DNA of 64,000 bases from Aerococcus sp. (GTDB taxonomy: Bacteria; Bacillota; Bacilli; Lactobacillales; Aerococcaceae). The position numbers and the translations under genes are program-made. The notes beneath the pieces were generated by a model. That model saw only the letters and a program-made list of their open reading frames with translations, searched no databases and had not been told where the DNA came from. Below are positions 4,328 through 14,981 of the stretch, in pieces (within the stretch, counting starts at the first letter, position 1; each line of letters opens with the position of its first letter). Location of the stretch: the NCBI GenBank assembly GCA_030528285.1, contig JAUMZE010000004.1, positions 124,001 through 188,000 of the forward strand. Reading direction: 5' to 3'.

Positions 4328-5554
4328 ATGACAACACTCACCGCAATGTATCAACCGCTATTCGAACCGATCCAACTCCCCAATGGCACCACTCTTGCCA
4401 ATCGTTGGGTCCTCAGCCCGATGATCACGAACAGTTCCACCCAGGAAGGAGAGGTGACAGATGAAGATGTCCAATATGCCGAACGCCGCAGTGCCTCCGC
4501 GCCAATCCAAGTGACAGGGGCGGCCTATATTGAAGAGTATGCGCAGTTATTCGAATACGGATTCAGTGCGAGTGATGATGCGCTCATTCCTGGACTGACA
4601 CGTCTCGCCACTGCCATGAAGCAGTCAGGTGCTAAAGTGATCCTCCAGCTCACGCACGCGGGACGGTTCGCGCGCATTGCACTGAAAGATTTCGGGTTAG
4701 TATATGGGCCCTCTGAGATGCATCTGAATACCCCAAACCCACATCAGGTCTATGAGATGAGTCCACGTAAAATCCAGCACGTCATCCGCCAATATGGAGC
4801 GGCTACCCGACGCGCGATCCAAGCGGGGTTCGATGGAGTTGAGATCTCGAATGCTCAGCGCTTGTTGCCACAGCAGTTCTTCTCTAAGTTTTCGAACCAA
4901 CGTCACGATGAATACGGAGTCGATTCCCTGGAAAATCGTGCCCGGTTCGGGGTCGAGGTCATGCGGGAGGTTCAGCGCGTGGTGGATCAATATGCGCCGG
5001 ATCCAGAGCACTTCATTATCGGCTTTCGCGCAACCCCTGAAGAAACGCGCGGGAACAATATCGGCTATACCGTGGAGGAATTTAATACGTACTTCGATCA
5101 GCTGTTAGAGGTCGCTCATATCCAGTATTATGCCTCGGCTAGCTGGGGACACAATATCTTCGCTCAGAAATTGCGCAGTGGGGAGCATGCGGGCGAATTG
5201 ATGAATGAGGTCGTTCACCAACATCTCGCCGGACGGGTCCCGTTGATGGCAACAGGTGGAATTAATTCTCCCGAAAAAGCCCTCGACGCCCTCCAACATG
5301 CGGATATGGTTGGGATGTCCACTCCATTTATCACAGAACCTGATTTCGTAACGAAACTCGAACAGGGAGACGAGGATGCGATCGATCTCAGTTTAGATAA
5401 CAAGGATTTAGCGGACCTGGCGATTCCAAAACGTGCCTTCAAGGATATTGTTCAGATGATGGATTACGGCGAGTCCTTGCCGAAGAGTGCGCGTGATCGT
5501 TTCAGAAGCGACGCAAATCAGTCTGAGGTGAACTACTTCAAGGATTATCAATAA
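4328..5554 (+). CDS. NADH-dependent flavin oxidoreductase, Old Yellow Enzyme family
   Basis: 408-residue FMN TIM-barrel enzyme. OYE features are LFEPIQLPNGTTLANRWVLSPM at the N-terminus, the QLTHAGR strand, EISNAQRLLPQQFFS where active-site residues and the substrate loop lie, and the phosphate-binding TGGINSPE. The usual GAH..L..QF motif is here SNAQRLLPQQF, as in the NADH-dependent oxidoreductase subgroup of Firmicutes. The physiological substrate is unknown; enone or flavin reduction is likely. An OYE gene is often part of the SirTM/macrodomain operon in staphylococci and streptococci (recalled from the literature), and that module starts 6 kb downstream. ATG 4328 is used; M7 (4346) is an alternative. 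Confidence 0.85.
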   Translation: MTTLTAMYQPLFEPIQLPNGTTLANRWVLSPMITNSSTQEGEVTDEDVQYAERRSASAPIQVTGAAYIEEYAQLFEYGFSASDDALIPGLTRLATAMKQSGAKVILQLTHAGRFARIALKDFGLVYGPSEMHLNTPNPHQVYEMSPRKIQHVIRQYGAATRRAIQAGFDGVEISNAQRLLPQQFFSKFSNQRHDEYGVDSLENRARFGVEVMREVQRVVDQYAPDPEHFIIGFRATPEETRGNNIGYTVEEFNTYFDQLLEVAHIQYYASASWGHNIFAQKLRSGEHAGELMNEVVHQHLAGRVPLMATGGINSPEKALDALQHADMVGMSTPFITEPDFVTKLEQGDEDAIDLSLDNKDLADLAIPKRAFKDIVQMMDYGESLPKSARDRFRSDANQSEVNYFKDYQ

Positions 5555-5977: not shown

Positions 5978-6745
5978 ATGCAAACAGCAACTGTTACACA
6001 TTTACGTAAGACATTTAAGACGGGAGATGAATCCTTCACTGCAGTAAAGGATGTCTCCTTAACGATTGCGCCTGGAGAAATCTTGGCGTTACTAGGACCC
6101 AATGGCGCGGGTAAGACAACCACGGTCCAGATAATTGCAGGATTACTGACGCCTGATAGTGGAGAAATTTATCTAGGCGATATCTTGCTCACACCCAAAA
6201 CGCGTCGTGAACATCTTATCGGGCTCGTTCTAGGCGGCGAACTCGGTTTCTATGGAAATGCGACGGCTCAAGATAATCTGCAATTCTTTGCTCGGTTGAA
6301 CAATCTAAGAGGTCCCAAACGCCAGCGGGAGGTTGATCGCGTTCTATCACTCGTTGATCTCACGAGTGTCAAGGATAAGAAGGTACGCGAGTTCTCACGC
6401 GGTATGCGCCAGCGTCTCCATATTGCGCGGGCATTACTTGGGCAGCCGGAGCTACTCCTGCTTGACGAACCGACGACTGGTTTAGATGTGGAGATTTCAA
6501 CTGCGATTCGTCAACTCATTCGTCGATTAGCAGATGAGGAGGGATTACCGATCCTCCTGACGAGTCATTTGATGGGAGAGGTAGAAGCCCTCGCCGACGA
6601 TATTATCCTTCTCGGTGGTGGTGAAATTTTCCATGAGGGAGACGTAAAATCCATAGTAGAACTCTCTCAGGTCAAACATATTGATCGGCCCGCCACCTTA
6701 GAAGAATCCTACTTGGCTTTGGCGCCACAGTTGCGCCGGAAGTAG
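5978..6745 (+). CDS. ABC transporter ATP-binding protein (ABC-2 type exporter)
   Basis: 255 residues. Walker A GPNGAGKTT (about residues 40-48), signature region FSRGMRQRLHIARAL, Walker B LLLLDEPTTGLD, then SHLMGEVEALADD with the H-loop. It belongs to the CcmA/DrrA-like group that works with ABC-2 permeases. It is followed by two permease genes (10-bp gap, then a 4-bp overlap), so the exporter is probably one ATPase pair with a permease heterodimer. The substrate cannot be read from sequence; a drug, peptide or lipid is usual for the family. AAAGGA sits 7 nt before the ATG, downstream of the leader RNA. Confidence 0.88.
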   Translation: MQTATVTHLRKTFKTGDESFTAVKDVSLTIAPGEILALLGPNGAGKTTTVQIIAGLLTPDSGEIYLGDILLTPKTRREHLIGLVLGGELGFYGNATAQDNLQFFARLNNLRGPKRQREVDRVLSLVDLTSVKDKKVREFSRGMRQRLHIARALLGQPELLLLDEPTTGLDVEISTAIRQLIRRLADEEGLPILLTSHLMGEVEALADDIILLGGGEIFHEGDVKSIVELSQVKHIDRPATLEESYLALAPQLRRK

Positions 6746-6755
6746 GTGAAGGATC

Positions 6756-7505
6756 ATGAGACAATTTATTGGCCTAAGTACCTTCCATTTAAAACTCTTT
6801 GCGAAGAACTCCTATTTCTTCTGGTTGATGATAACCAGTACGATTTCTTTGTTGTTCCTGCAGTATTTAGCAGCATACGCAGGTAACAGTTTGTCCGATC
6901 CTTATTTATGGCGGCGAGCCGCGATCTTTGGTTTGTGGTCATGTGGGACAACCGCTTGTGGGAGTATTGGCTTCGAGCGCGCGCAGGGAACTTTACTCTA
7001 CTTGTTGAATAATCGAGTGAGTGATCGTGTCTCTCTAGCGGCTGTCATCGTACCAGCTGCGAGCTTCGGTCTGCTGTGCTTTCCCTTAGCGTTTGGAGTG
7101 GGAAGCCTCCTGCAGTTAAATAAGACCATTTCGTCCGTCTGGCAGCTCCTCTTCTGGATGGGGGCATTATGGATAGGCGCCATGATCCTCGATTTTGCGA
7201 TTGCGGGATTATTTGTTCTGACGCCACGTGCGCTCGTGTATGAGGAGATTGTGACATTGCCATTACTTTTTGGATCTGGATTGTTTCAGTTGCCGCCTAC
7301 CTTACAGTGGATTGAGCAACTGGAGCGCTGGGTGGTACCGATCGCCAGCCCCATCCAGGCGCTCACAGGACAACCCTCATACCAGACATTCGTATTGCCA
7401 TATGCGGTGAGTCTACTAGGGTGGAGCGCGATTAGCTATTATCTCTCAACGACTCTCATTAACCAAGCCAAAAGAAAAGGTCGGTTAGGAGGGATCGGAC
7501 TATGA
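6756..7505 (+). CDS. ABC-2 type permease subunit 1
   Basis: 249-residue integral membrane protein with about six hydrophobic segments (near residues 25-45, 55-70, 95-115, 125-150, 155-180 and 215-235), the arrangement of ABC-2 permeases. Low conservation prevents a subfamily name. Its stop codon overlaps the start of the next permease gene (ATGA), which implies translational coupling and roughly equal amounts of the two subunits. Confidence 0.75.
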   Translation: MRQFIGLSTFHLKLFAKNSYFFWLMITSTISLLFLQYLAAYAGNSLSDPYLWRRAAIFGLWSCGTTACGSIGFERAQGTLLYLLNNRVSDRVSLAAVIVPAASFGLLCFPLAFGVGSLLQLNKTISSVWQLLFWMGALWIGAMILDFAIAGLFVLTPRALVYEEIVTLPLLFGSGLFQLPPTLQWIEQLERWVVPIASPIQALTGQPSYQTFVLPYAVSLLGWSAISYYLSTTLINQAKRKGRLGGIGL

Positions 7506-8218
7506 AAATCGCATTATTATCGCTTAATATCCTCGAAAATTGGCAAACCCGTTTCTTACACTTTGTCTTATTACCATTGATTGACGTGGCTTTATTGGCA
7601 CTGATCTATGCGCAATATGCTTCTGATTTTTCCTTTCAGGTAGCGATCGCGTCAGTGCTTGTTTCTACTTGTTTGATCACCATGAATACCTTCTCGGGAT
7701 TACTTGTGTCGGACCGTTTTCGTGGAATGGATCGCTATGTATTGAGTATTGGAGGCAGTAGTTATTACTGGGTCTCCAAAATCGGAGCGACTCTCGTGGT
7801 AGCTTTGGGATTGTCTTTGATTAACTTACTGATTTTAGGCGCTTTTGGGGCACCGCTTCAGTGGGTGTTCCAAGCGCTTTACTACCTACCGCCATTGGTT
7901 ATATCCGGTTTAGTGCTTGGGTTCTTCTCTTTTGTGACGGCCTGGCGCATGGATAATCCATATTTCACGAGTAACCTCATCAGTGGGGTAGCGGTGGTAT
8001 TATCGGGTGCCTTGATCCCGATTCAACAATATCCGCCTGTCCTCAAAGAATTAGCTCATCTGTTACCAATTAGTGGCTGGCTATCGGCATATTATGGGGA
8101 TCCAACCCTCATCATTCAGGATAGCATCGTGTTACTGATTTGGGGTGCTCTAGCATGGGGAATCTTCCACTATCAAACGAAACACTTAACCGATGACCAA
8201 GAGCATGGGCTATGGTAG
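7502..8218 (+). CDS. ABC-2 type permease subunit 2
   Basis: 238 residues with about six membrane segments, including a central helix LGLSLINLLILGAFG and the ABC-2-like LISGVAVVLSGALIPIQQYP followed by LLPISGWL. It is related in layout to the preceding permease and is probably its partner in a heterodimer. It starts inside the previous stop codon (4-bp overlap) and ends the operon, with a terminator 15 bp downstream. Confidence 0.75.
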   Translation: MKIALLSLNILENWQTRFLHFVLLPLIDVALLALIYAQYASDFSFQVAIASVLVSTCLITMNTFSGLLVSDRFRGMDRYVLSIGGSSYYWVSKIGATLVVALGLSLINLLILGAFGAPLQWVFQALYYLPPLVISGLVLGFFSFVTAWRMDNPYFTSNLISGVAVVLSGALIPIQQYPPVLKELAHLLPISGWLSAYYGDPTLIIQDSIVLLIWGALAWGIFHYQTKHLTDDQEHGLW

Positions 8219-8232
8219 TGAATACTTTACTT

Positions 8233-8270
8233 AGAAGAAGTCCAACTGAAAATGTGGGCTTCTTCTTTTC
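8233..8270 (+). terminator. Rho-independent terminator of the ABC exporter operon
   Basis: AGAAGAAGTCC with GGGCTTCTTCT (one G-U pair), then TTTTC. Confidence 0.85.
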
Positions 8271-8288
8271 GAATCAGGAGGCACAAAC

Positions 8289-10214
8289 ATGACGATGGTA
8301 CAATCCAATCCTAATGATCCCGAGGCGATTTATTCTTTAATTGGTTTTGACGCGATCCGCTCCAGACTATCACAACTCGCCCAGTCAGAGCAGGCGAAGG
8401 AGCGTCTTAGAACACTCACACCGGTCACGAATCCCGAAGTGGTGCGTTACTTATTGGCGGAAACAACAGAAGCCGTGCATTTATTAGGGAGTGGCGGGCA
8501 TCTGCCATTTCTGGGATTAACGCAGATCCAGCATCTAATGGATAAGATCGAAAAGGGTATCGTTTTGTCGGCAGAGGAGTTAACGATTGTGGTGGATTTC
8601 CTGAGGGGCTGCCGGTTAGGGCGCCAATTTTTCGAACGGAATGCCGGACTCACGCCGATTCTCTATCAGTACAGTCTAAATCTGGGAAACTTTTCGAGTA
8701 CAGAAGCAGCGATTTATCAGGCTATCCGTGGTAATCAATTAGTCGATGAGGCGAGTCGCACATTGAAGAAGATCCGACAGCGACGCCAAGAAAAACAAGA
8801 GAAGATGGACGAACGCTTGCAGAAAGCGCTCCAAGAAGCAAGCCAAAAGAAATACTTGCAGGAAGCGATGATTGTCGAACGCAATGGCCGGCAAACGCTC
8901 CCAATTCAAGCAACCTATAAGAACAAATTCAAAGGAACGGTGGTAGATACCTCTAGTAAAGGGCTCACGGTGTACATGGAACCAGTGTCGATTCAACGTT
9001 TAACCGCTGATGTGTGGCAACTTAAAATGGAGGAAGAAGCAGAGTCCTATCAAATTCTCGCGGAACTGACTGGCTATGTAGCAGCCGATACCTTAGCGAT
9101 TAGGCAGAGTTTAGAAGTGGTGGTGACATTAGAGGTGATTATGGCGCGTGCGAAACTCGCACGGGAGATGTCCGCCAGAGAACCTGAGATTAATGAAGCA
9201 GAAAAGATACAGCTTGTTGGTGTGAAGCATCCATTTATTGATGATCCCGTGCCACTCTCGCTGATGCTTGGCGAAGATTTTCGGGGATTGACAATTACCG
9301 GGCCAAATGCAGGTGGAAAAACAGTGGTCCTCAAAACGGTCGCACTGATGCAGGTGATGGCACAGTCTGGATTACAAATTCCGTGTGAAGCGGGGACGTC
9401 GCTACCGACATTCGATCAGGTTTTTGTATCGATCGGGGATGCTCAAAATCTAGCCAACAGTTTGAGTACATTCTCGGCACACCTCAGTGACTTGGCGAGT
9501 TTTGTCAGGAAAGCGAGACGCCATACATTGATTTTGGTGGATGAAATTGGTAGCGGAACGGATCCGAAAGAAGGGGCGGCTTTGGCGAATGCTTTATTGG
9601 AATACTTCTATCAGTCAGGGAGTCTCGTGCTCTCTACTACACATTACGGGGAGATTAAGGATTTCTCCAAGGCACATCCAGCGTTCGAAACTGCGGCGAT
9701 GGTGTTTGATTCCGAAACGCTCGCGCCGAGTTATCAATTAGTGATGGGAGAGAGTGGTGAGAGTAATGCATTCGGGATTGCTGAACACGTCCAACTCGCT
9801 CCATCCATCCAAGCACGCGCCCACGATTTCATGTCCGGGACTGTGAATTTGGAGGATCCCACTATCTATGAAGTGAAGACATTTGAGGCATCGAAAGCCA
9901 AAACAACGACCTATCAAACCGCACGTGCATGGCAGCAGGGGGACCGCGTGATTCTCACTGAGTGGGGGAATGTTGGGTTGGTGTATGAGGACGTGCCAAT
10001 GAGTAATGATGTGGTGATTTATCATAATGGTCAGATGGAGCGCGTCCCTGAAAAACGCGTAAAATTATCAATCCCTGCTAGCGAGCTCTATCCCAGAGGT
10101 TACGATAAAACACGCCTGTTTATGACGTATGAGGATTACAAGGCTGAGCATGACCTTATGCGTGGAAGCAAAAAATCACAGAAACAATTACAGAAGAAAC
10201 AGCGTAAACGATAA
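8289..10214 (+). CDS. MutS2-like DNA-binding ATPase lacking the Smr nuclease domain
   Basis: 641 residues. It has the MutS2 core and clamp (a long helical charged segment around residues 160-200), then the MutS ATPase: Walker A GPNAGGKT near 338, Walker B LILVDEIGSGTDP near 418 and the STTHYGEIK switch. Full MutS2 proteins are about 780 residues and end in an Smr domain. Here the C-terminus is a short beta-rich segment (GDRVILTEWGNVGLVYED) and a basic tail ending KQLQKKQRKR. It is therefore a MutS2 paralogue or shortened form. MutS2 acts on branched DNA or collided ribosomes; the role of this short form is unknown. AGGAGG lies 6 nt before ATG 8289. The gene is single, with terminators on both sides. 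Confidence 0.8.
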   Translation: MTMVQSNPNDPEAIYSLIGFDAIRSRLSQLAQSEQAKERLRTLTPVTNPEVVRYLLAETTEAVHLLGSGGHLPFLGLTQIQHLMDKIEKGIVLSAEELTIVVDFLRGCRLGRQFFERNAGLTPILYQYSLNLGNFSSTEAAIYQAIRGNQLVDEASRTLKKIRQRRQEKQEKMDERLQKALQEASQKKYLQEAMIVERNGRQTLPIQATYKNKFKGTVVDTSSKGLTVYMEPVSIQRLTADVWQLKMEEEAESYQILAELTGYVAADTLAIRQSLEVVVTLEVIMARAKLAREMSAREPEINEAEKIQLVGVKHPFIDDPVPLSLMLGEDFRGLTITGPNAGGKTVVLKTVALMQVMAQSGLQIPCEAGTSLPTFDQVFVSIGDAQNLANSLSTFSAHLSDLASFVRKARRHTLILVDEIGSGTDPKEGAALANALLEYFYQSGSLVLSTTHYGEIKDFSKAHPAFETAAMVFDSETLAPSYQLVMGESGESNAFGIAEHVQLAPSIQARAHDFMSGTVNLEDPTIYEVKTFEASKAKTTTYQTARAWQQGDRVILTEWGNVGLVYEDVPMSNDVVIYHNGQMERVPEKRVKLSIPASELYPRGYDKTRLFMTYEDYKAEHDLMRGSKKSQKQLQKKQRKR

Positions 10215-10333: not shown

Positions 10334-10396
10334 TTTACATTTAGATCTAGCTCTTTTATACTCGAATTTAATGAGTAATCAATGAAAACGCTTTGA
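10334..10396 (+). promoter_or_regulatory. Promoter with downstream cre site
   Basis: TTTACA (10334-10339), a 17-nt spacer, TATACT (10357-10362). The cre-like TGAAAACGCTTTGA lies at 10383-10396, between the start point and the gene. It agrees with the CcpA consensus except at the end, so carbon catabolite repression is likely. Confidence 0.68.
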
Positions 10397-10410
10397 CTAT
10401 AGGAGACATC

Positions 10411-11427
10411 ATGGACATCAGTATTTTAGACTATGCTCAAATGGATGAGGGGGAGAGTGCTACTCAAGCCCTCCAGCATACGGTGCGTCTCGCCCAACTC
10501 GCGGAACGATTGGGGTACAAACGTTTTTGGATGGCGGAACACCATAATGTGCCTGCTTTTGCTAGTTCGAGTCCGGCACTGATTGCACTTCAGGTGGCGA
10601 GCCAGACCCAGCATATTCGGATTGGGAGTGGCGGTGTGATGTTGCCGCATTATAGCCCGCTTCAGGTGGCGGAGAATTTCCGCGTACTGGAGGCTTACTA
10701 TCCGGGGCGCGTGGATCTCGGAATGGGGAATAATCCAGGAACCACGCTGGTACGGAACGCCATGCAGGATCCAACCCCACAAAAACAATCCTATCTCGAC
10801 AAAATGGCCACGCTCCAGAATTATCTACAAACAGATCAAACAGATCGATTGGAAGAGACGGGAGTCAGCGCCAATCCCGTGGTGAGTGAGAGTCCGGAAA
10901 TGTGGATGCTCTCAACCTCCGTTCAGCATGCGATCGATTGTGCCAAGATGGGGATGAGTTATTGCTATGGGTTGTTTCCTTATGCACGAGAGGATGGGAT
11001 TGAGGTCGGACGGGAAGCCGTCGCCGCGTACCAAAAACACTTCAAACCGTCCGCGAGTCAGCAGGAGCCACGCACCATGGCCGCTATTTTTGTCAGTGTG
11101 GCGAAGAACCAAGCGCTAGCCAACGGGATGAGCCGTGCGCTGGATTGGTGGTTATTGGGGCAGGACGATTTCAGTTACTTCAAACGTTTTCCGTCGATTG
11201 AAACGGGTGAGTCGTATGTTTATACACCGGAGCAAGAAGAACAGGCTCAGCGTAATCGCACGCGCATGGCACACGGGACGATTGAAGAGGTGAAGGCACA
11301 ACTGACTGCGCTGGTCGATACCATGAAGGTGGATGAGTTACTGTTGATGCCCCTCATGCCTGGGATCGATCGGCGCATAGAGGCACTGGAATTACTAGCG
11401 GAGGCTTTCCATTTAGGGGAACATTAG
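10411..11427 (+). CDS. LLM-class flavin-dependent oxidoreductase (luciferase-like)
   Basis: 338-residue bacterial-luciferase-fold protein. It starts ISILDYAQMDEG and contains RFWMAEHHN, IRIGSGGVMLPHYSPLQVAE and YYPGRVDLGMG, the diagnostic motifs of the single-subunit LLM group. It should bind reduced FMN and act as a monooxygenase or reductase on an unknown substrate. The start was set at ATG 10411 after AGGAGA; an upstream TTG (10393) lies inside the cre site. An LLM protein is commonly encoded next to the GcvH-L/macrodomain/SirTM operon, exactly as here, so it probably works in the same redox-linked pathway. Confidence 0.85.
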   Translation: MDISILDYAQMDEGESATQALQHTVRLAQLAERLGYKRFWMAEHHNVPAFASSSPALIALQVASQTQHIRIGSGGVMLPHYSPLQVAENFRVLEAYYPGRVDLGMGNNPGTTLVRNAMQDPTPQKQSYLDKMATLQNYLQTDQTDRLEETGVSANPVVSESPEMWMLSTSVQHAIDCAKMGMSYCYGLFPYAREDGIEVGREAVAAYQKHFKPSASQQEPRTMAAIFVSVAKNQALANGMSRALDWWLLGQDDFSYFKRFPSIETGESYVYTPEQEEQAQRNRTRMAHGTIEEVKAQLTALVDTMKVDELLLMPLMPGIDRRIEALELLAEAFHLGEH

Positions 11428-11489: not shown

Positions 11490-11518
11490 TTGACGAATGA
11501 GCCGTAACCCCTGATAAT
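11490..11518 (+). promoter_or_regulatory. Promoter of the gcvH-L/macrodomain/sirTM operon
   Basis: TTGACG (11490-11495), a 17-nt spacer, GATAAT (11513-11518). It gives the operon its own start site, separate from the oxidoreductase gene upstream. Confidence 0.65.
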
Positions 11519-11520
11519 AG

Positions 11521-11541
11521 GGGAGGCATATCCTCCCTTTT
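11521..11541 (+). terminator. Short hairpin terminator of the LLM gene, at the start of the next transcript
   Basis: GGGAGG, a 5-nt loop, CCTCCC, then TTTT. It can end the LLM transcript, and because it begins 3 bp after the -10 element of the next operon it would also sit at that mRNA's 5' end. Confidence 0.6.
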
Positions 11542-11578
11542 AATGGAGGAATGGACAAAAAGAAAGGATGACAAATCA

Positions 11579-11974
11579 ATGACAAAACGAGGCAACTACT
11601 TATTTGTAGAAGAAGAAAAGACCTATACTGTTTCGATGACACCAGAATTACAGGATGATGTGGGAACGGTTGGCTACGTAGAATTTGCGAAAGGAGACAC
11701 CGTTGAAAAGAACGGCGCGCTCGCAAATATCGAAGCATCCAAAACCGTGATGGAAATCCAGTCTCCAATCGCTGGAAAGATCATTGAAAAGAACACCGCT
11801 GCGGAAGATAACCCTGCATTGTTGAACTCTGCAGACCCTAAAGAAAATTGGATCGTGCGTTTGGTAGAAGTCTCTGATGCAGATTACGACGCATTGGAAG
11901 CAGAAACAGCTGTACCTGCTGAAGATGACGGCGAAAACAGTTCTGCTGTGATCCGTCGCGAAATCATTAAATAA
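11579..11974 (+). CDS. GcvH-like lipoyl carrier protein (GcvH-L)
   Basis: 131-residue lipoyl domain protein of the glycine-cleavage H family, with the lipoylated lysine in NIEASKTVMEIQSP (K55). No gcvP or gcvT gene is nearby. Instead it heads an operon with a zinc macrodomain and a class M sirtuin, which identifies it as the GcvH-L form studied in Staphylococcus aureus and Streptococcus pyogenes. There it is lipoylated and then ADP-ribosylated by SirTM, at an acidic residue reported near position 27; D26 and D27 are present here. The start was set at ATG 11579, giving the usual H-protein N-terminus; AAAGG is about 10 nt upstream. Confidence 0.88.
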   Translation: MTKRGNYLFVEEEKTYTVSMTPELQDDVGTVGYVEFAKGDTVEKNGALANIEASKTVMEIQSPIAGKIIEKNTAAEDNPALLNSADPKENWIVRLVEVSDADYDALEAETAVPAEDDGENSSAVIRREIIK

Positions 11975-12034
11975 AACAGCCGAATTTTTTGGTAAGGTTG
12001 TAACTACTAGATGTCGGGTGGGGAGGATCGTTGT

Positions 12035-12835
12035 ATGACAGCCATACAGGAACAACTGATTGATTGGTTACAGAGCGAACGCCAGGCAGACGAGGGGATC
12101 ATTCCTGAAGACATGCCCTCTGATGATGCGTCTCAAAGGAAAATGCTCCATGGATTGATGAATATCCGGCCAGCAAAACCGATTCCCGCTGAGATATTGG
12201 ATGTACAGAATCGCTATCTCAAAGCCTTTAACCAAAATCATCCGCGCATCAGTTGGACCGATACGGAGCATTATACCGAGCAATTGTCGCTCTGGCAGGG
12301 GGACATTCGCTTGCTCGCAGTGGATGCGATTGTGAACGCCGCAAATTCGCAAATGCTCGGGTGTTTCATCCCGAATCACCTCTGCATTGATAATGTCATT
12401 CAGACGCAAGCGGGGATGCAGATGAGATACGACCTTAGTCAGATGATGGCTGCGTCCAATCAGCGTTATGAACCCATTGGCAAGGTCAAGGTCACAAATG
12501 GCTATAACCTGCGCGCACGTTATGTCTTCCATACGGTGGGCCCCCGCATCATGAAGGGTAAAGTGACCCCATTGCGTCGGGATATGCTCCGTTCGTGTTA
12601 CCTAGCGTGTCTAAAGGAAGCGGACGCAATGCAGCTGGAGACGTTGGCGTTCTGTTGCTTGTCGACGGGTGAATTCCAGTTCCCGAATGACCAAGCGGCA
12701 GATATCGCGATCAACACGGTCCGCAACTATCTCACGACCACCCATTCACGATTAAAGGTGATTTTCAATGTCTTCAAAGATCTGGATTATCATCTCTATC
12801 AAGAACGTTTAGAGAAAATCGAGAGAGGGCAGTGA
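12035..12835 (+). CDS. Zinc-dependent macrodomain protein-ADP-ribose hydrolase
   Basis: 266 residues. A helical N-terminal extension (about 1-80) precedes a macrodomain: WQGDIRLLAVDAIVNAANSQMLG (ADP-ribose binding), then C110, H115 and C117 in the GCF..NH.CID pattern that holds zinc in this subclass, and VFHTVGP and CCLSTGEF loops. Family members remove ADP-ribose from GcvH-L, reversing SirTM. The start was set at ATG 12035 behind GGGGAGGA; the upstream ATG at 12011 has no site. SirTM follows after 4 bp. The motif after the zinc site reads CIDNVIQTQAG, where I remember a His after the Ile in other members; that substitution should be checked. Confidence 0.88.
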   Translation: MTAIQEQLIDWLQSERQADEGIIPEDMPSDDASQRKMLHGLMNIRPAKPIPAEILDVQNRYLKAFNQNHPRISWTDTEHYTEQLSLWQGDIRLLAVDAIVNAANSQMLGCFIPNHLCIDNVIQTQAGMQMRYDLSQMMAASNQRYEPIGKVKVTNGYNLRARYVFHTVGPRIMKGKVTPLRRDMLRSCYLACLKEADAMQLETLAFCCLSTGEFQFPNDQAADIAINTVRNYLTTTHSRLKVIFNVFKDLDYHLYQERLEKIERGQ

Positions 12836-12839
12836 GAAG

Positions 12840-13754
12840 ATGCAACAGTTAAATCAAGCAACAACCACTGTCACTCCCGCCGTTCAAGCCGAAGCTACGC
12901 AGCTACTCACATTACTACATGACGCGGATGCGATTGTGGTCGGCGTGGGGGCGGGACTTCCCGCGTCGGACGGCTTTACCTATACGGGTGAACGATTTAG
13001 AGACAACTTTAGCGATTTCATTGAAGCAAAAGGATTCATTGATATGCTGCAAGCCTTTGTGAGCGATGAGGCGTATTCCTCCCTCACAGAGTATTGGGCG
13101 TTCAAGAGTCGATTTGTCGTGTTGAATGCGCTCGATCAGCCCGTGGGAATGGGGCATATCGCATTGAGGGAGCTCCTCGAAGGCAAACAGTGGCATCTGA
13201 TCACGACTAACGCGGATAATGGCTTTCGTGTGGCTGGTTATGAGCCAGAGAAACTCTTCTACTATCAAGGGGAGTATGCCCTGATGCAGTGCCGAAATTT
13301 CTGCCACAGTATGACCTATCGTGATGATCGCTTGATGCGACAAATGGCAACGCATCAGGAAAACTGCCAGATTGATGCGACGCTGATCCCCTATTGCCCT
13401 GTCTGTGGGGCACCGTTAGAGATCAACAAACGAGTCAGTGGGAAAGGCATGGTGGAGTCCCCAGATTGGGTGCGTCAAAACCACCGCTACCGAGATTTTC
13501 TCACTCAGCATCAAGATGAGTGCGTACTCTATCTAGAAATCGGCGTAGGTAACACCACCCCACAATTTATCCGCCAGCCGTTCCAACAGCGAGTCCTAGA
13601 AAATCCCAACGCGCGCTATGTGATGATGAATGCGAAACCGTATCGTATCCCGGCAACCATTCAGCCACAAACGGTGCGATTACGGGAAGACATTCAATCC
13701 GTTCTCTTGGAGGCAAGAAACCAACAATTAATCACACAGGCAGCAAACGTTTAG
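12840..13754 (+). CDS. Class M sirtuin, protein ADP-ribosyltransferase (SirTM)
   Basis: 304 residues. The NAD-binding motif GAGLPASDGF (37-46) and TTNADNG (122-128, replacing the TQNID of deacetylase sirtuins) are present. The catalytic His is replaced by Gln in FYYQGEYALMQC (Q143). Zinc-ribbon cysteines are C151, C155, C186 and C189. These are the hallmarks of SirTM, which transfers ADP-ribose to lipoylated GcvH-L instead of deacetylating. It starts 4 bp after the macrodomain gene, so the writer and eraser are translationally coupled. In pathogens the system responds to oxidative stress and depends on a lipoate ligase LplA2; no such ligase is encoded in this window. Confidence 0.9.
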   Translation: MQQLNQATTTVTPAVQAEATQLLTLLHDADAIVVGVGAGLPASDGFTYTGERFRDNFSDFIEAKGFIDMLQAFVSDEAYSSLTEYWAFKSRFVVLNALDQPVGMGHIALRELLEGKQWHLITTNADNGFRVAGYEPEKLFYYQGEYALMQCRNFCHSMTYRDDRLMRQMATHQENCQIDATLIPYCPVCGAPLEINKRVSGKGMVESPDWVRQNHRYRDFLTQHQDECVLYLEIGVGNTTPQFIRQPFQQRVLENPNARYVMMNAKPYRIPATIQPQTVRLREDIQSVLLEARNQQLITQAANV

Positions 13755-13766
13755 TGAGGTGAAGAC

Positions 13767-14981
13767 ATGCTGAAAGATAAACAAATTGTGGTCGTCGTTA
13801 CGGGGGGCATTGCCGCTTACAAAATCCCACTTTTAGTACGCGGACTGATCAAGCGGGGCGCGCGGGTCAGAGTGGCGATGACATCAACTGCGACTAAATT
13901 TGTGACGCGAGAAACACTCGAAGTTTTGACGCATTATCCGGTGCTTACAGAAACCTCATCGACGTATCCGGATGACGTGCCACATATTGCCTTGGCGGAT
14001 TGGGCGGATTATGCGTTGATTGCGCCAGCGACGGCGAATACAATCGGCAAACTTGCAAACGGAATTGCGGATAATGAGGCCTTGAGTGCTTTACTCGCAA
14101 TGGATGTGCCTACCTTGGTGATTCCCGCGATGAACCAACACATGTGGGCACATCCAGCTGTTATGCGGAACGTCCAGACGCTGCGTCATGATGGTTACTA
14201 TGTGCTCGAACCGGCTGTGGGCTATCTTGCAGAAGGCTACGAGGGCAAGGGCCGTATGATCGATGTTGAGAGTATCCAATATGCAATGGAGGCGCTGATT
14301 GCGAATACTGAATCAGAGGTTCCTTCTCTCGCTGGTGAAAAAATCGCGATCAGCCTAGGGGGCACCGAGGAAGTCATTGATCCAGTGCGCTATTTGACGA
14401 ATCGCTCTAGCGGGAAGATGGGGCTCGCATTGGCTTATACCGCGGTTCTAGCAGGGGCGGAAGTGACAATTATGCCAACGCCGGTTGCTCAGACCCTCCC
14501 AATGCTCAGTGAGTTTCACGTTGAACCGGTGAGTGATGCCCGCAGTCTTGAACGTGCGATGCTCCAGGCGAATCAAGAGAGTTCCATTGTGGTCATGGCA
14601 GCGGCTGTTTCCGATTACCGTGCCCAGCAGGTATCCTCCCAGAAGATCAAGAAGCAAACCCAGCAGGAACAAGCGTTGACCCTTGCATTAGCGGAGAATC
14701 CGGATATCTTAGCAGAATTGGATAACCAAACGACTTATCTCGTAGGCTTTGCGGCTGAAACGCAGGATGTGGAGAATTATGCCCGCCAGAAGTTACAGCG
14801 CAAAGGGGCGGACATGATCGTTGCGAATGACGTCAGTGACCAAACGATTGGCTTTGGGAGTCGTGATAATGCGGTGAAAATCATCACGAAAACCACGGCC
14901 ACAGCGGTCCCGAAGCAGAGTAAACTCGGGATTGCTGCCCAGATCTGGCGTGCGGTTCAAGCAGATAAAAAGCATAAATAG
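13767..14981 (+). CDS. coaBC: Bifunctional phosphopantothenoylcysteine decarboxylase/synthetase
   Basis: 404 residues. The CoaC half has VTGGIAAYK, catalytic H73 in PHIALADWAD and PAMNQHMW (N123). The CoaB half has GGTEEVIDPVRYLTNRSSGKMG, AAAVSDYR and the KIKK motif. It makes 4'-phosphopantetheine for coenzyme A. The substrate-recognition clamp reads VGYLAEGYEGKGRM, with Glu (E156) where the E. coli protein has the reductive Cys158. It begins 12 bp after sirTM without a terminator and so is probably cotranscribed with the ADP-ribosylation module, an arrangement that I do not recall from other hosts. A long-stem terminator follows. Confidence 0.92.
   Translation: MLKDKQIVVVVTGGIAAYKIPLLVRGLIKRGARVRVAMTSTATKFVTRETLEVLTHYPVLTETSSTYPDDVPHIALADWADYALIAPATANTIGKLANGIADNEALSALLAMDVPTLVIPAMNQHMWAHPAVMRNVQTLRHDGYYVLEPAVGYLAEGYEGKGRMIDVESIQYAMEALIANTESEVPSLAGEKIAISLGGTEEVIDPVRYLTNRSSGKMGLALAYTAVLAGAEVTIMPTPVAQTLPMLSEFHVEPVSDARSLERAMLQANQESSIVVMAAAVSDYRAQQVSSQKIKKQTQQEQALTLALAENPDILAELDNQTTYLVGFAAETQDVENYARQKLQRKGADMIVANDVSDQTIGFGSRDNAVKIITKTTATAVPKQSKLGIAAQIWRAVQADKKHK

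Follow-up and report, generated by a model that had tools for sequence, protein, structure and literature searches.

In the SirTM operons described from Staphylococcus aureus (sav0322-sav0327) and Streptococcus pyogenes (spyM50865-spyM50870), a GcvH-L lipoyl carrier, a zinc-dependent macrodomain (Zn-Macro) and a class M sirtuin (SirTM) are encoded in one tight block, and the GcvH-L and LplA2 genes are described as flanking SirTM (Rack et al., 2015; PMC4518038). The published model is a cycle of lipoylation, ADP-ribosylation and removal of the modification, in which the carrier links lipoate chemistry to flavin oxidoreductases (Rack et al., 2015, PMC4518038; Ariza et al., 2024, PMC11490716). 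Macrodomain and SirTM are described as fused in fungi and encoded by adjacent genes in bacteria (Rack et al., 2015; PMC4518038).

The window (the whole stretch of DNA analysed here, 64,000 nucleotides) has the same GcvH-L/Zn-Macro/SirTM block, and its gene set agrees with the legend to Figure 1 of Rack et al. (2015; PMC4518038). We read the locus, with a probability of about 0.9, as the extended SirTM operon of an Aerococcus-like bacterium, predicted to run a lipoate-linked ADP-ribosylation cycle. The module is the extended operon of Rack et al. (2015), intact but rearranged, and largely ordinary. As in S. aureus and S. pyogenes, the luciferase-like monooxygenase (LLM) and the Old Yellow Enzyme-type oxidoreductase (OYE) are encoded nearby, key residues are kept, and the LplA2 of this genome belongs to the same clade as the operon-borne ligases. 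Unlike in those operons, LplA2 lies on another contig, coaBC follows SirTM, OYE is four genes away from LLM, the macrodomain has an Asp-Gln in place of an Asp-His pair, and GcvH-L carries an extra C-terminal tail. The kind of system is thus one already described in Staphylococcus and Streptococcus, and the value of the present locus is in its natural variants; a literature search found no paper combining "Aerococcus" and "SirTM".

Features of the SirTM locus in the window (coordinates in the window)
Feature	Coordinates	Strand	Remarks
OYE, Old Yellow Enzyme-type oxidoreductase	4328-5554	+	Partner gene, now apart from LLM
Four genes between OYE and LLM	5978-10214	+	ABC-transporter-like ATPase, two membrane proteins, MutS2-like protein
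LLM, luciferase-like monooxygenase	10393-11427	+	Start codon uncertain; just upstream of GcvH-L
Probable promoter TTGACG-17-GATAAT	11490-11518	+	10 of 12 consensus bases
GcvH-L	11579-11974	+	131 aa; reading frame open and intact
Zn-Macro	12035-12835	+	266 aa; reading frame open and intact
SirTM	12840-13754	+	304 aa; reading frame open and intact
coaBC, CoA biosynthesis flavoprotein	13767-14981	+	12 bp after SirTM

The sequence-only reading had assigned the three central genes to their families, and correctly so: the best PDB matches are all solved S. pyogenes or S. aureus proteins, namely 5a35 for GcvH-L (E 1.4e-31), 5kiv for the macrodomain (E 2.9e-69, followed by 8rsl at 3.5e-69) and 5a3a for the sirtuin (E 1.1e-98). 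We take these three entries to be SpyGcvH-L, SauMacro and SpySirTM. The same reading drew the module too small: LLM, OYE and the remote LplA2 are members as well, and the block runs on past 13754 into the attached coaBC. Its description of the genes as tightly packed holds for Zn-Macro and SirTM, where the macrodomain gene ends 4 bp upstream of the sirtuin gene, and less well for GcvH-L and Zn-Macro, which are 60 bp apart. Between the window and the closely grouping genome G011, pN/pS is 0.21 for GcvH-L, 0.21 for Zn-Macro, 0.29 for SirTM, 0.29 for coaBC, 0.27 for LLM, 0.11 for OYE, 0.18 for LplA2 and 0.07 for PDH-alpha, values that are rough because pS approaches saturation in every case except PDH-alpha. 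A decayed operon is unsupported: internal stops are absent and pN/pS is low.

The macrodomain scores 309.3 bits against the NCBIfam model NF003163, "protein-ADP-ribose hydrolase" (cut-off 272). It shares the zinc loop C-x4-H-x-C of the Zn-Macro family, known from structures 8RSL, 8RSM, 8RSI, 8RSN and also 5KIV (Ariza et al., 2024; PMC11490716). The ligands C110, H115 and C117 are those that had been read from the sequence, and all 24 aligned proteins have them. Furthermore, N120 and N43 match S. aureus Asn123 and Asn46, and D119 is also kept. Because of the zinc loop and the score above a curated hydrolase cut-off, we place the protein close to the family, as a Zn-Macro with an altered dyad, without extending the published dyad chemistry to it. 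The dyad of MorMacro is Asp116/His120, and the His is described as conserved (Ariza et al., 2024; PMC11490716). In the window protein the Dx3H motif is absent and reads D119-x3-Q123, with the Asp kept and the His replaced. His stands at this position in 19 of the 24 aligned proteins and in all four solved Zn-Macros; the five with Gln are those of the window, G011, G014, G005 and G033. A second difference concerns Arg42 of the S. aureus protein, which together with two other residues is said to keep the zinc loop in place (Ariza et al., 2024; PMC11490716). The alignment sets H39 of the window protein against this Arg, which the S. pyogenes and M. oralis macrodomains share with that of S. aureus; His occurs in three of the 24 (window, G011 and G004) and Arg in 21.

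With Q123 and H39, hydrolysis by the window macrodomain could be weaker. This leads to an alternative in which writer and target are the same and the eraser is weak or altered: the Gln dyad and the loss of the zinc-loop Arg would slow hydrolysis, and GcvH-L would stay tagged longer, or a second hydrolase would do the job. The replacement of a dyad His described as conserved, the Gln in 5 of 24 relatives and the His for Arg42 in 3 of 24 all speak for it. Against it, the zinc ligands are intact throughout, pN/pS of the macrodomain equals that of GcvH-L, and in the five Gln-bearing genomes the GcvH-L/Macro/SirTM block is otherwise complete, which points to the Gln being tolerated. We regard a weakened eraser as unlikely, and favour the extended operon with a functional cycle.

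Completeness of the system was a further claim of the sequence-only reading, which had listed writer, eraser and target together. All three genes are indeed present, but the ligase is encoded elsewhere. The genome has four LplA/LipB-type matches; one of them, the LplA2 at C16:126727-127749 on a separate contig, falls into a clade with the operon-borne ligases, supported at 100/99. The tree comprised 31 of 47 matches and four operon ligases from named Staphylococcaceae; the other 16 matches were lower-ranking, without a locus and at most 42% identical. Every one of the 20 genomes that have the GcvH-L/Macro/SirTM block also has a ligase of the LplA2 clade. Its gene adjoins the GcvH-L/SirTM locus in 12 genomes and a second SirTM in two (G001 and G002); in the remaining six (G000, the window genome, and G004, G005, G011, G012 and G034) it is unlinked. 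The two genus genomes without SirTM (G007 and G008) have a single ligase match each, in the other clade. That LplA2 accompanies SirTM even when unlinked supports it as a functional part of the system. Loss of LplA2 is ruled out by the clade member elsewhere in the genome, and from the phylogeny we infer that the C16 ligase would serve GcvH-L. The window would then work like the extended operon with one member, LplA2, moved out.

LLM (NCBIfam TIGR03558, 337.7 bits, cut-off 166.95) stands directly upstream of GcvH-L in the two nearest relatives, G011 and G004, as well. In both of these the order is OYE-LLM-GcvH-L-Macro-SirTM-coaBC, followed by def on the other strand, and OYE and LLM are separated by 3 bp (G011) or 11 bp (G004). 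In the window, OYE (Pfam Oxidored_FMN, 183.1 bits; 87% identical to the OYE of G011) is about 4.8 kb upstream of LLM. The names of the ATPase and the two membrane proteins in between were read from sequence alone. The fourth intervening gene, at 8289-10214, encodes a MutS2-like protein of 641 aa; a longer MutS2-like gene is present elsewhere in the genome, and of the 14 other genus genomes searched, G007 and G010 alone have full-length relatives of the 641-aa protein (41-42% identical). Near the start of the window, 12-794 encodes the end of a repeat-bearing protein with an LPQTG-type wall anchor, as read from the translation.

The promoter lies where it had been proposed, with TTGACG at 11490-11495, a 17-nt spacer and GATAAT at 11513-11518, beginning 89 bases before the GcvH-L start. 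A match of this quality is by itself not above chance (6 found against 5.3 expected). We keep it as a probable promoter because it recurs in both nearest relatives, each with a 10/12 match at the same spacing, 82 and 72 bases before the GcvH-L start: TTGACG-17-GATAAT in G011, and TACTAT after TTGACA-17 in G004. When each of the 150-base stretches was shuffled by single bases, matches of the 10/12 type arose in 4%, 3% and 0% of 300 shuffles. A match of at least 10 was seen at just 2 of the 21 other loci, which makes the site a feature of this branch and not of the operon in general. A scan of the plus strand from 11518 to 14016 found no promoter-like site. A terminator-like hairpin at 11520-11535 was discarded as not above chance (3 found against 4.2 expected).

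The coaBC gene (NCBIfam TIGR00521, 407.7 bits, cut-off 219.7) occupies the same position after SirTM in G011 and G004, one often taken by LplA2. Its DFP domain was found once in each of the eight genus genomes searched, and in three of them (the window genome, G011 and G004) the gene is at the SirTM locus. In G033, of another genus, coaBC is found downstream of the SirTM block (L055), in the same orientation and about 1.3 kb past OYE; loose proximity of coaBC is accordingly not unique to this branch. These features allow a second alternative, that of a rewired module with the ligase under separate control, the only coaBC found being read from the SirTM transcript, a Gln eraser and a tailed carrier. 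If so, a "stress" operon would need constant expression to sustain CoA synthesis, and control of tagging would lie in the supply of ligase and not in induction of the operon. We hold this rewiring to be a doubtful proposition next to the ordinary extended operon.

The GcvH-L protein matches Pfam GCV_H at 70.4 bits, and K55, already picked out as the lipoyl lysine, corresponds to Lys56 of SpyGcvH-L. By alignment, D26 and E23 correspond to Asp27, the likely ADP-ribose acceptor, and to Glu24 of the same protein, a Glu said to occur only in GcvH-L (Rack et al., 2015; PMC4518038). Equivalents of E23, D26 and K55 are present in all 24 aligned GcvH-L proteins. A C-terminal tail of about 20 residues occurs in only 2 of the 24, those of the window and G011 (residue and tail counts are from the 24-row alignment, of which alignment A1 contains 12 rows). 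The tail deserves attention because GcvH-L has been argued to lack the C-terminal helix of canonical GcvH, a helix that would lie over the acceptor position (Rack et al., 2015; PMC4518038).

Its GCV_H match could make GcvH-L an ordinary glycine cleavage H-protein with coincidental neighbours. It scores, however, only 68.6 bits against the NCBIfam model of canonical gcvH, far below the cut-off of 115.85; it has the GcvH-L-specific Glu, and its linkage to Macro and SirTM is conserved. A search of the genome for the glycine cleavage P-protein, GcvP, gave no match, and a search for a second H-protein left the window GcvH-L as the only GCV_H match; such absences are provisional because the assembly is 85% complete. 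A GcvP match of some kind was obtained in 12 of 22 genomes; it was strong (below 1e-130) in five, and the seven with partial matches only (about 110-125 residues, E 4.1e-4 to 9.5e-9) were set aside. Since neither GcvP nor another H-protein was found, GcvH-L is unlikely to work in glycine cleavage, and together with the sub-cut-off score this leads us to reject the ordinary H-protein as very improbable. The finding fits the suggestion, made for S. pyogenes GcvH-L, of a function other than glycine cleavage (Rack et al., 2015; PMC4518038).

The sirtuin has, as had been noted, Q143-G144 where other sirtuins have the catalytic His, and QG in place of HG is the class M motif (Rack et al., 2015; PMC4518038). 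The TTNADN stretch (N124-A125-D126) is likewise confirmed, against TQN-D in 28 of 28 canonical rows. By alignment, N124, D126, Q143 and R198 correspond to Asn118, Asp120, Gln137 and Arg192 of SpySirTM, whose activity needs Asn118, Gln137 and Arg192 (Rack et al., 2015; PMC4518038). The protein also carries GVGNTTP, which fits the class M motif GVGx[NT]TP (Rack et al., 2015; PMC4518038), and GAGLPASDG where 20 of 30 aligned rows show GAGMSA. C151, C155, C186 and C189 probably bind a structural zinc. Searches of Pfam and NCBIfam at E 0.001 gave no match for it, and the Pfam SIR2 model matches one other gene of the genome, on C1.

Phylogeny had been named beforehand as the analysis that could place the sirtuin with deacetylases. 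In a tree of 58 rows, all 28 canonical sirtuins fall on one side and 30 SirTM-like proteins on the other side of a branch supported at 100/100, and the window sirtuin groups with those of G011 and G004. Canonical rows were picked by a Pfam SIR2 match and an HG dipeptide and include the genome's own canonical sirtuin; the tree was built without SpySirTM itself and without the fragment L125. Its depths are unsure since long branches meet (L061, L062 and the canonical rows, with a warning from the tool). A deacylase, as suggested by the "deacetylase SIR2" annotation of plasmid-borne relatives (26 records in a plasmid search, all below 60% identity), is therefore rejected as highly improbable: the protein lies outside the canonical clade, Pfam SIR2 finds only the other gene, the catalytic His is Gln and TTNADN replaces TQN-D, and SpySirTM and SauSirTM are reported to be without deacylase activity (Rack et al., 2015; PMC4518038).

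A SirTM match was obtained in 22 of the 60 genomes searched, a set that contains the window genome itself. GcvH-L, Macro and SirTM occur together in that order in 20 of these 22, among them G017 with its fused Macro-SirTM frame. The other two have distant sirtuin-like proteins of another family of the order (L061:9461-10267 and L062:9250-10050), 26-28% identical to that of the window, which carry FG instead of QG. Although they are two of the 30 rows on the SirTM-like side of the tree, their sequence does not make them SirTM.

A second SirTM clade (97/80) is present in four genus genomes (L057:9117-10055, L058:525-1463, L059:9083-9946 and L060:9073-9981). It has GCGYMAP where others have GVGxTTP, and no Macro or GcvH-L match was found in the fetched stretches, of which L058 begins at a contig end. 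The gene adjoins LplA2 in G001 and G002, and an undecaprenyl diphosphate synthase-like gene in G012. In G017, Zn-Macro and SirTM form one 573-aa reading frame (L040:8903-10624, minus strand) within a bacterial extended operon that includes GcvH-L, LplA2, LLM and OYE. The same two activities would be expected of the fungal macrodomain-fused SirTM (Mfs1) and of the window proteins; unlike Mfs1, the window has two separate genes plus GcvH-L, whereas the bacterial G017 frame is fused.

Together, apart from its departures, the window fits the model of Rack et al. (2015) and Ariza et al. (2024), as judged from its genes and residues. In the proposed cycle, LplA2, encoded elsewhere, would attach lipoate to Lys55 of GcvH-L; SirTM would use NAD+ to ADP-ribosylate the lipoylated carrier, most likely at Asp26; and the zinc macrodomain would take the tag off again. 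The untagged lipoyl carrier would probably exchange electrons with LLM and OYE, in which case a small redox carrier would be turned off by the tag and on again by its removal. We infer the chemistry and its dependence on lipoylation from the published S. aureus and S. pyogenes work, where the redox-switch role is a proposal; biochemical activity and a link to oxidative stress are likewise presumed by analogy with work on S. aureus, S. pyogenes and Candida.

The locus adds a well-supported member to the lipoate/ADP-ribosylation system, with natural variants at positions stressed in the literature, namely the macrodomain dyad His, the GcvH-L C-terminus and the linkage of the ligase. In particular, macrodomains that naturally carry either His or Gln offer a way to learn whether the dyad His is required.
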